Program-made: the position numbers and the translations under genes
Assembly: GCA_012522955.1 (NCBI GenBank)
Contig: JAAYJK010000014.1
Coordinates: 1-53,381 of the forward strand
Direction: 5' to 3'
Length of the DNA stretch: 53,381 bases
DNA from: Syntrophomonadaceae bacterium
Lineage (GTDB): Bacteria; Bacillota; Syntrophomonadia; Syntrophomonadales; Syntrophomonadaceae
Notes under the pieces: generated by a model
Databases searched by the model: none
Seen by the model: only the letters and a program-made list of their open reading frames with translations
Told to the model about the DNA's origin: nothing
Part shown: positions 20,595-51,947 of the stretch, one piece after another
Layout of the letters: each line of letters opens with the position of its first letter
How positions within the stretch are numbered: the stretch's first letter is position 1

Positions 20595-20904
20595 AGTTCA
20601 CTCTAAAATGAATTGTGCGCCGAAAAATTGGTAATCATTGCGGGCGACCACAGGTCGCCCTACAGGCTCGCACCGTTGAGTATGGATTTCAGGCGGCCTA
20701 TATGGGGAAAGAATAAGTTCCCACCAATTAAGTATAGATCTGAGGCGGAACTATGTGTCCATGCCCCTCGAAGGTATTATCAACCTCCATGATCAGGGAA
20801 CACAGCCGAGTATGAAACCTTTGAGCTATCCGGGCGGGCGGTCAAAGTCCGCCCCTACATTGCCATGACCCCCTTTTCATTGGGGACGATTTTCCTGCTA
20901 AAGC
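20595..20904. repeat. Palindromic repeat units, copy B
   Basis: The gap between pstS and marR has no gene. It contains an uninterrupted unit at 20616-20684: TGCGCCGAAAAATTGGTAAT, then the palindrome CGGGCGACCACAGGTCGCCC and TACAGGCTCGCACCGTTGAG. A second unit, CGGGCGGTCAAAGTCCGCCC plus CTAC, is at 20835-20858. Unit one is closely related to sequence flanking 40664-40898 and shows what that site looked like before its insertion. The intervening 150 bp holds no recognised signal. Confidence 0.75.
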
Positions 20905-39332: not shown

Positions 39333-40550
39333 GTGGATAATACAATAATGCAGCAGGTAGATGAACAACTGGCCATAATACGCCGTGGGGTTGCAGAAAT
39401 CGTACCTGAGGAAGAGCTCAAACAAAAGCTGTATAGATCTATAAAGGAAAAGAAACCTCTTAGGGCTAAGTTAGGGCTGGATCCTACTGCTCCAGATATC
39501 CATCTGGGTCATACTGTAGTTCTAAATAAATTGAGACAATTTCAAGACCTGGGGCACGAAGTTCACCTTATTATCGGAGATGCCACTGGTCGTATTGGTG
39601 ATCCCAGCGGCAAATCTGAGACTCGAAAACAGCTGAGTGAAGAAGAGATCAAATTAAATGCCGCTACTTATCAGGAACAAATTTTTAAAGTATTGGACCC
39701 ACAAAAAACCATTGTCCATTTTAATAGCAAGTGGCTTATGGATATGAATTTGGAGGCGGTACTCAGGCTGGCCGGAAAGTATACCGTAGCCCGTATGCTG
39801 GAAAGAGATGATTTTGATAATAGATATAAAGAAGGTCTTCCTATAGGAGTGCACGAATTTCTCTATCCATTAATGCAGGGTTATGATTCGGTGGTGTTGG
39901 AAGCTGATATAGAATTAGGTGGTACCGATCAGAAATTTAATCTTTTAGTTGGCCGTCATCTCTTGCGGGAATATGGCTATGAACCGCAAATTGCCTTAAT
40001 GATGCCCATACTCGAAGGTTTGGACGGGGTTCAGAAAATGAGTAAAAGTCTGGGTAATTATATCGGAGTTAATGATGATGCTTATGAGATGTTTGGTAAA
40101 ACTATGTCCATCAGCGATAAACTAATTAGCAGATATTTCGAACTACTTACTCGAATACCCATGAACCAGATTGAAGCCACCCAGGCCAAAATGGATCAAG
40201 GTGCAATCAATCCCCGGGATGCTAAAATCAGTTTGGCCAAAGAACTGATCACCATGTATCATGACGCCGAGGCAGCAGAAAAGGCTGAAGCCAGGTTTAA
40301 ACTGGTTTATTCCCAAGGAGATATACCCCAGGATATACCAGAGGTACAAATTCCAGCCCAAGAAGTGTGGCTGCCTAAATTCTTGCAGGAAAACAATATG
40401 GTTAGTTCTAGCAGTGATGGACGCCGTATGCTGCAACAGGGTGCCGTCAGGGTTGATGGGGAAAAATTTGAAGAAGAAAACCTGCAGATAAAAGACGGCA
40501 TTGTAGTACAAGTAGGCAAAAGGAAGTTTATTAGGATACGAATTAGCTAA
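39333..40550 (+). CDS. tyrS: Tyrosyl-tRNA synthetase (TyrZ-like long form)
   Basis: This 405-residue class I synthetase has the HIGH-like motif in [34 protein letters not shown], the tyrosine pocket region [23 protein letters not shown] in [10 protein letters not shown], and a C-terminal S4 RNA-binding domain ([20 protein letters not shown]). The [11 protein letters not shown] and [12 protein letters not shown] patterns place it with the TyrZ/TyrS2 group. GTG 39333 lies 7 bases after AAGGAGG; an ATG at 39331 is in another frame and stops at once. A repeat region follows; no clear terminator was found. Confidence 0.95.
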
Positions 40551-40616: not shown

Positions 40617-40898
40617 GTAGGGGCGGTCTTTGACCGCCCGCCGTTACCTATATATCAATAATATGCACCGAAAAACTAGTAATCGTTGCGGGCCAGACTG
40701 TCGGAAAACTATTGTACAGTTTACAATCGTCCCACTTGATGCTGCTTATTTGCCATATTAAGGGCTGGAGGCTTATTTGTGGCCCTGAAATACTACATTA
40801 TCCTCCACTTTGGCGACCCAACTTGCACTTTTTAAGACTTTTCGTACCGTCTCGGGCGACCACAGGTCGCCCCTACAGACTCGCCACCGTTAAGTATG
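40617..40898. repeat. Palindromic repeat units, copy C, interrupted by an insertion
   Basis: Unit one, GTAGGGGCGGTCTTTGACCG plus CCCG, is at 40617-40640. Unit two begins TGCACCGAAAAACTAGTAAT at 40664, matches copy B up to CGGGC (40689-40693), is broken for about 160 bp, and resumes at CGGGC (40853-40857) with GACCACAGGTCGCCCCTACA through 40898. The two halves joined give a sequence closely matching 20616-20684. Confidence 0.8.
40694..40852. mobile_element. MITE-like insertion (159 bp) with imperfect inverted ends and CGGGC duplication
   Basis: The insert starts (after one C) with AGACTGTCGGAAAACTATT and ends with AAGACTTTTCGTACCGTCT, whose complement is AGACGGTACGAAAAGTCTT; 14 of 19 positions match by my count. 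CGGGC flanks both sides, consistent with a 5-bp target duplication, and the uninterrupted copy B at 20616-20684 has a single CGGGC there. It has no coding capacity and is probably mobilised by a transposase elsewhere. Confidence 0.7.
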
Positions 40899-49175: not shown

Positions 49176-51947
49176 TTATTTGGGCTTAACAATTCCATAT
49201 TTGGCCGCCTTACGTACTACGGTAGGTTGGCTAACCCCCAATGCCCGAGCTATAGCGTAGGTGGAATTATATAAGGTAAAAGCTTCCTGCAACAAGCTGC
49301 GTTCAGTATTCTCCACAGCAGTATTTAAAGGCACAATCTCGACTCGGTGTCTGGAAGTAGATTCCAATTCTGACCAAGCTGACAAGTCATCAAGACTGAT
49401 TATATCATGTTGGGTGGTTACCACCAGGCGTTCAATCAGGTTTTCCAATTCTCTTACATTACCTGGCCAATCATAGGAGATAAAATTCTTCAATACTTCA
49501 GCTGATAGCCGCTTATTCATACCATGCCTGCGGTTGAATCTTTCCATGAAATGTTTGCTCAAAACAGGTATGTCTTCTCGGCGTTCCCGCAGGGGAGGCA
49601 CAAAGATCGGCACCACATTAAGACGATAATACAAATCCTTGCGGAACAGTTGGTCCGCCACCATATTCTGCAGATTGCGATTGGTGCCGGCGATAATTCT
49701 TACATCCACTGCTATTTCCCTGGTTCCTCCAATACGCATTATCTTACTGTCCTGCAATACGCGCAAAAGCTTGACTTGCAGATCCAGAGGCATTTCCGCT
49801 ATCTCATCCAAAAACAGAATACCCTCATCGGCCAGTTCAAACATACCTGCCTTGCCACTCTTACTGGCTCCGGTAAAGGCTCCTGGTTCGTAGCCAAATA
49901 ATTCTGACTCCAGTAAATTTCCAGGGATGGCACCGCAATTAACCTTAATAAAGGGTTTATTGGCCCTGGGACTGCTGGCATGCAGGATATCCGTAACAAC
50001 TTCTTTTCCTACTCCCGATTCGCCTAAGATAAGAACGGTGGAGTCAACCGTTGATACATGATTGACCATTTTCAATAGTTTTCTCATCTTATCAGAGTGC
50101 AATATACAGCTTTTTGAGCTTTTCAATTGATTGAGTTGTACCTGATACATACGGCTCAATCCTTCTAATTGTTCAACTTTGCCCTGCAGCTCATTCAGTT
50201 CAGTGATATCACGTACGTTGGTAACTACCAGTATAATTTGCCCGTCCTCATCAAAAATGGGGTTACTGGTAACCAGGGCGCTTTTGCCAGTTTTGGACTG
50301 TAAAGTTATAGTTGCTGTTTGTCCGGATTTGATAGCCAAGAGGGTCCCGGAACGGGTAAATACGCCCTCCTGTACCAGTTCAGCCATATTACGTCCTACG
50401 CATTCCTCAGAGGTAACTCCCATTATGCGCTCAAAAGCTTGGTTGAGTCGCAGGGTGTTGCCATCTCCATCGGTAATATACAGACCATCATAGGAAGAGT
50501 CAATAATGGCATCCAGTTCTTTGCGCCTTAATCCTTCAACTTGCTCTAGTTGATGTTCTAAAGCCTTTAATTCCGTCATGTCTCTCACATTGGTAACTAC
50601 CATCATTATTTGTCCATTGTTATCGAAAATGGGGGTGCTGGTAACCAGTATGTCTTTTTTGTTGGCCTTGAGAGGAACCGTAACCGTTTCCCTTTTTTCT
50701 ATAGCCAGCAAACTGCCGGAATCCGTATAAACCCCATCTCTGATCAAATCTTGCATATAGCGTCCGCTTATTTCTTCGTTCATTATTCCGGTAATGCGTT
50801 CAAAACCTTTATTTACCCGCAGGGTTTTGCCCTGTCCATCGGTAATATATAAGCCATCGAAGGAAGATGCCAAAATAGCTTCAAATTCCCGTTCTCTTAA
50901 TACCTTGACATCTTCCAGCTCTTGTTCCAGTTTAATCAAGTCAGTCAAATCACGTACATTGGTAACTATTAGAACGATATTGCCCTCATCATCCATAATT
51001 GGGTTGCTGGTAACCAGAGCATTTTTTCCAGTTTTGGATTGTAACGGTATAGTTACTGAGTGCCTTCTTTCCAGTACCAGCAGGGTGCCAGATCTAGTAA
51101 AATAACCTTCCTTAACCAAATCAGCCATGTTGCGTCCTACACACTCTCTGGAAAAAACTCCCATAATGCGCTCAAAGGCCTTATTCAAGCGCAGGGTTTT
51201 ACCTTCCCCATCAGTTATGTATAAACCATCGTAGGAGGATTCGAAAATAGCATCCAACTGCTGATTGAGTTTCCTGGTTACTTCCAGTTCTTCTACAACG
51301 CTTTCTAATTCAGATATGTCCTGTAAACAAGCCACGGCACCGGTAATCTTGCCATCCACTGTAATAGGCCCTCGATTGGACAGAAGGGTTTTCCCCTGGT
51401 ATTTAATTTTTTGCAGTTTTTCTTTCTCTCCACTTTTGATAATCTTACCCAATCCACTCATATCAAAGACTTCGCTTATCTGTTTCCCATAAGCATCTTG
51501 AGCAGATATGCCCGAAACATCTTCCAAGGATCGGTTGAATAGGGTGATTCGTTCGTTATCATCTACCGCTACCAGGGGGTTATATATAGAGTTTAGACAA
51601 ACATCCCATTCCTGTTGTTTCTTCTGGAGAATATCAAAGAAAGAGATAGTCAGGTTGTACAAAGCTCGGTTGTCCTCTTCTGGTCTATAATCCTCATCGC
51701 TATCAACAGAATATTGCAATTCGTCCAGGATGCGCAGACTTTCTCTGTCCTGGGACATTATGGTATGAATGGGTGTATCATAAGGCAGGCCAGCTGAGAT
51801 TACTTTCAGCAGGTGGTTCCAATTGATCAAGCCTAGTACCTCATAATTATCGTCAACTACTCTTACCCCGTCTAGCTGATGTTGAAGTAAAAAATCTGAA
51901 GCCTGGGCGGCGGTAGAATCACAGTGAAGCACAAGAGGTGCAGTCAT
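49176..51947 (-). CDS. Sigma-54-dependent activator with CBS-like and four PAS domains
   Basis: This 923-residue regulator has an N-terminal CBS-like half (about 1-65), PAS A (112-212), three mutually similar PAS domains B, C and D (about 231-336, 356-461, 479-584), the AAA+ domain with Walker A ILGESGVGKEVV (about 640-650), GAFTGA (689-694), Walker B GILFLDEIAEM (709-719) and FRKDLYYRLNVVP, and a C-terminal helix-turn-helix (YAIARALGVSQPTVVRKAA). GAFTGA is the loop that contacts sigma-54. It is convergent with the butyrate cluster and is the natural candidate to fire the promoter at 41562. No receiver domain is present, so the signal is likely sensed through PAS or CBS parts. Confidence 0.94.
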   Translation of the reverse strand: MTAPLVLHCDSTAAQASDFLLQHQLDGVRVVDDNYEVLGLINWNHLLKVISAGLPYDTPIHTIMSQDRESLRILDELQYSVDSDEDYRPEEDNRALYNLTISFFDILQKKQQEWDVCLNSIYNPLVAVDDNERITLFNRSLEDVSGISAQDAYGKQISEVFDMSGLGKIIKSGEKEKLQKIKYQGKTLLSNRGPITVDGKITGAVACLQDISELESVVEELEVTRKLNQQLDAIFESSYDGLYITDGEGKTLRLNKAFERIMGVFSRECVGRNMADLVKEGYFTRSGTLLVLERRHSVTIPLQSKTGKNALVTSNPIMDDEGNIVLIVTNVRDLTDLIKLEQELEDVKVLREREFEAILASSFDGLYITDGQGKTLRVNKGFERITGIMNEEISGRYMQDLIRDGVYTDSGSLLAIEKRETVTVPLKANKKDILVTSTPIFDNNGQIMMVVTNVRDMTELKALEHQLEQVEGLRRKELDAIIDSSYDGLYITDGDGNTLRLNQAFERIMGVTSEECVGRNMAELVQEGVFTRSGTLLAIKSGQTATITLQSKTGKSALVTSNPIFDEDGQIILVVTNVRDITELNELQGKVEQLEGLSRMYQVQLNQLKSSKSCILHSDKMRKLLKMVNHVSTVDSTVLILGESGVGKEVVTDILHASSPRANKPFIKVNCGAIPGNLLESELFGYEPGAFTGASKSGKAGMFELADEGILFLDEIAEMPLDLQVKLLRVLQDSKIMRIGGTREIAVDVRIIAGTNRNLQNMVADQLFRKDLYYRLNVVPIFVPPLRERREDIPVLSKHFMERFNRRHGMNKRLSAEVLKNFISYDWPGNVRELENLIERLVVTTQHDIISLDDLSAWSELESTSRHRVEIVPLNTAVENTERSLLQEAFTLYNSTYAIARALGVSQPTVVRKAAKYGIVKPK
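50196..51257 (-). repeat. Three tandem PAS-coding repeats within the sigma-54 activator
   Basis: PAS domains B, C and D repeat with a period of 124 and 123 residues (about 370 bp), each with (S)S(Y/F)DGLYITDG and VTNVRD(L/M/I)T(D/E)L at matching positions. B and D are closer to each other (both have VGRNMA and TLQSKTGK- or PLQSKTGK-type segments, RSGTLL) than either is to C. This suggests duplication events within the gene. Confidence 0.8.

Follow-up and report, generated by a model that had tools for sequence, protein, structure and literature searches.

The repeat copy at positions 40664-40898 of the window, by which is meant the whole 53,381-nt stretch of Syntrophomonadaceae DNA analysed here, is interrupted by a 160-bp MITE that carries no transposase gene. 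The element is very probably (at roughly 85%) an IS1182-type MITE that is mobilised in trans and targets the feet of REP palindromes. It provides a clean natural case of nested mobile DNA, a MITE within a REP-bearing repeat, for which both orthologous and paralogous empty sites are available.

The inserted element

The interrupted repeat, termed copy C, is made up of a left part (40664-40693, plus strand) and a right part (40858-40898, plus strand), with 159-160 bp set between two CGGGC motifs at 40689-40693 and 40853-40857, the spacing of which is exactly 159 bp. As the original prediction had claimed, an empty version of the repeat is found in the same window, since copy B (20616-20684, plus strand) is an uninterrupted paralogue with a single CGGGC, its GGGC lying at 20642-20645 and its REP at 20642-20663. 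The prediction had gone on to propose a transposition event with a 5-bp target duplication. The event itself stands, but a duplication of 4 bp fits better when the frames are compared over 18 copies of the element. The 4-bp frame (GGGC/GCCC, leaving a single S base at either end of the element) fits exactly in 11/18 and holds with at most one mismatch in 14/18, whereas the best 5-bp frame is exact in just 7/18 and was rejected; in copy C alone the two lengths are indistinguishable. With all frames tried, the flanks of the 18 copies comprise 11 exact 4-bp duplications, three with three of the four bases, three that are inverted rather than direct (L002, L005 and L087) and one that is unresolved (L071).

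The more likely arrangement in copy C is thus a 4-bp duplication, GGGC at 40690-40693 and 40854-40857 (both on the plus strand, the right one forming the first four bases of a REP), around a 160-bp element at 40694-40853 on the plus strand. Within this element one S base lies beyond the AGAC that starts at 40695 and another beyond the GTCT that ends at 40852. The imperfect 19-bp inverted ends that had been noticed earlier are present, the left terminal inverted repeat AGACTGTCGGAAAACTATT (40695-40713, plus strand) agreeing with the right one, AGACGGTACGAAAAGTCTT in its minus-strand reading (40834-40852), at 14 of 19 positions. An Rfam scan returned a T-box and two tRNAs only, with nothing at the element, and the RNA fold of the element is unremarkable (z = -1.75); therefore no RNA function is claimed for it.

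A family of MITEs in two congeners

The insert belongs to a repeat family. A BLAST search with it across its whole genome (G000; 2.53 Mb in 137 contigs) hit five additional places (75-82% identity), of which one is truncated at one end, so that six copies are known there with copy C included. These five matches (E = 6e-40 to 3e-20), along with 28/28 uninterrupted junctions of the host repeat, place the insert beyond chance. The original prediction had held that a lack of other copies would speak against a mobile element; copies are found both in its own genome and, among 60 relatives, in a single congener, G004, where BLAST and end-motif searches revealed about 15. The element was found only in these two of the five genus members, which are also the two that have the REPs described below.

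Copies with both ends whole are 155-161 bp long and their ends are conserved. The end sequence is SAGACWGTCSGAAAA, given as CAGACTGTCSGAAAA in the end comparison, and the subterminal sequence is CTATTGTACAGTTT / TCTTAAAAAGTGC. The family has the features by which MITEs are recognised, being short (below about 500 bp), devoid of a transposase gene and present in multiple copies, with a target site duplication of 4 bp that is exact in most copies. Its terminal inverted repeats are imperfect in copy C but better elsewhere, as in L074, which has AGACAGTCCGAAAACTAT at both ends.

Relationship to IS1182 elements

Members of the same taxonomic family carry IS1182-family transposases (NF033551, scoring up to 429 bits) between ends of the form CAGACTGTGTGAAAA, which occur with minor variants in L131, L146, L147, L150, L157, L159 and L174 and match those of the MITE. 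Exact 4-bp duplications flank L147 (ACGT), L174 (CCGT) and L157 (ACGT), and three of four bases match at L131, L146 and L159, while L150 has inverted flanks. These full-length-type elements also sit at palindromic sequences. It is because of the ends, the target type and the duplication length that the MITE is assigned to IS1182. One of the elements, L131 (G002:C24), is 1077 bp long, has an internally deleted transposase (298 aa) and occupies one of two adjacent GGGGACGGTTCTGTTGTTAC-type palindromes, the intact twin of which adjoins it.

The search for a transposase with the same ends, which the original prediction had named as a check, thus had a divided outcome: near-identical ends are found on IS1182 elements of other genera and of one congener (L131), but no intact element has them in the window's own genome. 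No IS1182 transposase was detected in G000, and there was no match to PF01609, PF13751 or DDE_Tnp_1. In G004 there is a single IS1182-like gene, and this is a decayed one that has two in-frame stops and of which just the right end can be recognised (AGACTGTCCAAGAAGT). Where a single end motif was matched in G000, G002, G003, G004, G047, G027 and G030, no transposase ORF was recognised alongside on reading the ORFs. What the MITE has in common with the nearest full-length elements is confined to about 13-18 terminal bases, and in place of its GTCSG those elements read GTGTG.

The MITE insertion could be real and yet be the work of a transposase outside IS1182, for instance one from an IS5-like family whose GAGACTGTC ends are similar. 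The shortness of the shared end motif and the absence of an intact partner from G000 would both allow this. Moreover, a Chloroflexaceae MAG contains MITE-like pairs of AGACTGTCTGAAAAG ends 171-176 bp apart (L114, L116, L120, L121 and L122), flanked mostly by 3-bp TCA/TAA duplications (TNA), unlike the 4-bp ones of the present element. Such TNA duplications look IS5-like, and the end motif alone may hence not be exclusive to IS1182. Against this, those elements of the same taxonomic family that have these ends code for IS1182 transposases, have 4-bp duplications and occupy palindromic targets, and the protein encoded by the G004 relic, which has the right end AGACTGTCC.., is IS1182-like. A transposase from another family is consequently an outside chance. 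In a distant phylum, similar MITE-like elements are seen in Sphingomonas (L111 and L118), where paired AGACYGTCCGAAAACTC ends are separated by 157-158 bp and the 4-bp duplications are GAAC and CATC.

REP feet as the insertion target

The palindrome GGGCGRYCANAGRYCGCCCCTAC, counted with at most 3 mismatches, occurs 182 times in G000 and 275 times in G004 but is absent (0) from G001-G003, and a reversed control pattern gave 0 in both G000 and G004. It is a palindrome within the 20-40 bp range of GTAG REPs, with GTAG at one end and a high copy number, and, judged from sequence, it fits the GTAG REP super-family (PMC3733652), which likewise consists of short, high-copy palindromes with GTAG at one end, often in facing pairs. 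The main text of PMC3733652 makes no mention of Syntroph- or Clostridia. At copy C the GTAG-tagged palindrome GGGCGACCACAGGTCGCCCCTAC lies at 40854-40876 on the minus strand, and its foot, the end away from GTAG, is the target. A second REP-like palindrome in the intergenic region, GTAGGGGCGGTCTTTGACCGCCC (40617-40639, plus strand), is uninterrupted.

In 16/19 assessable copies the element directly adjoins a REP at its foot, on the side opposite GTAG. This is the palindromic target expected of an IS1182-derived element; from the REP counts, such exact placement would arise by chance with a probability of about 9e-5 per insertion. The host repeat is on this account a REP-bearing unit used as the target. 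The interpretation put forward in the original prediction is thereby upheld overall, with the qualification that the element entered a preferred target rather than an arbitrary repeat.

Since a REP adjoins most copies, it might be supposed that MITE and REP form a composite unit and move together, for example by means of a RAYT-type enzyme, such enzymes being thought to mobilise REPs (PMC3733652); CGGGC would then be the REP end and there would be no target duplication. At the site of copy L003 the congener G004 does miss REP and element jointly. However, G000 has some 180 REPs and only 6 elements, the REP lies at either the left or the right element end depending on the copy, three assessable copies have no REP, and the tyrS site of G004 has a REP without the element. 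Joint movement is accordingly very unlikely, and insertion of a separate MITE at REP feet is preferred.

Order of events

Copies B and C belong to a host repeat unit about 85-150 bp long, most examples of which contain two facing palindromes, and this unit is uninterrupted at the junction in all 28 aligned G000 loci, copy B among them. The tyrosyl-tRNA synthetase gene (tyrS, 39333-40550, plus strand), the product of which is 90% identical between G000 and G004, served as the syntenic anchor for an orthologous site. Downstream of tyrS in G004 this repeat is present but lacks the element (ATTGCGGGTGACACAGGTCGCCCC), and when the joined flanks of the occupied site were aligned with this empty-site sequence (ATTGCGGGTGACACAGGTCGCC) the flanking bases matched up on both sides. 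G001-G003 have tyrS, and also the conserved stretch that comes after it, but not the repeat block. With an empty orthologue in G004 and three congeners without the repeat block, the interruption in copy C is derived, a nested insertion. This is the opposite of the ancestral interrupted form that the original prediction had named as a refuting result. The most economical reading of these comparisons is that the REP-bearing unit would have arrived first, and that the element then inserted in the window's lineage. The structure of copy B could also result from an exact deletion from one CGGGC repeat to the other, but the 28 uninterrupted paralogues at different loci and the REP-only site of G004 would each need such a deletion, by which an ancestral interrupted form is in effect refuted.

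Other sites are less instructive. The L003 site is uninformative on order because G004 lacks both REP and element there. Copy L004 of G000 has no empty counterpart in G004, where the same intergenic region contains another copy of the element, decayed, oppositely oriented and next to a REP (L180, G004:C99); the L004/L180 region is a case of recurrent insertion at a REP-rich spot. In one host-repeat copy, L028 (G000:C58), CCGCCCGAGACCGTCCGACATAGCC follows the second REP where others have CCGCCCGTCGGGCATAGCC. The extra AGACCG(TC) resembles an element end and could be an excision footprint.

Proposed mechanism and relation to known systems

An IS1182-type DDE transposase supplied in trans would bind the SAGACWGTCSGAAAA ends and either cut the element out or copy it. 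The element would then be inserted, with a stagger of 4 bp, where the REP palindrome has its foot (GGGC | REP stem), so that GGGC is duplicated and the REP stem survives whole on one side. At a facing pair of inverted repeats, the product may have inverted instead of direct flanks, resembling the outcome in which IS1272 replaces inverted repeats.

IS1272, a member of IS1182, is reported to target stem-loops and to take their place with no duplication (PMC5678879, PMC4923244). The present element resembles IS1272 and TnSha1 in its preference for hairpins or inverted repeats (PMC5678879, PMC4923244) and in having some copies with inverted-repeat flanks and no direct duplication, and it resembles the IS1182 family in the transposases of the full-length elements with matching ends. 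It differs in being 160 bp long and without a transposase, and in that it mostly makes a 4-bp direct duplication and keeps the palindrome intact, whereas IS1272 is reported to replace or partly delete the stem-loop. REPs are also published targets of other IS families, namely IS1397, ISKpn1, IS621, ISRm22 and ISPpu9 (PMC1525189, PMC8450116), and in those cases, as here, one particular mobile element has its hot spots at the palindromes. Those elements are autonomous and of other families, in contrast to a MITE at the REP foot, and ISRm22 inserts at the palindrome axis.

Since the literature already describes the targeting of hairpins by IS1182 as well as that of REPs by insertion sequences, the element is of a known kind. 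No description of an IS1182-type MITE was found in the open-licence literature, and a MITE of this type that is strongly specific for REP feet has apparently not been reported from syntrophic Firmicutes. That 4-bp duplications and inverted flanks occur side by side is relevant to hairpin recognition by IS1182 transposases, for which the literature found describes IS1272-type elements only, and may add a mechanistic twist. Rather speculatively, a single IS1182-type system might have two outcomes that depend on the geometry of the target: at a lone REP hairpin the element would enter the foot by 4-bp staggered insertion, and between facing inverted repeats it would replace the spacer. If so, the reports of 'no duplication' for IS1272 would be reconciled with ordinary staggered cutting, and REP density would control the spread of the MITE.

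Elsewhere in the window, at 50418-51260, three 102-nt repeats are spaced by about 370 bp within a minus-strand ORF of 923 aa.
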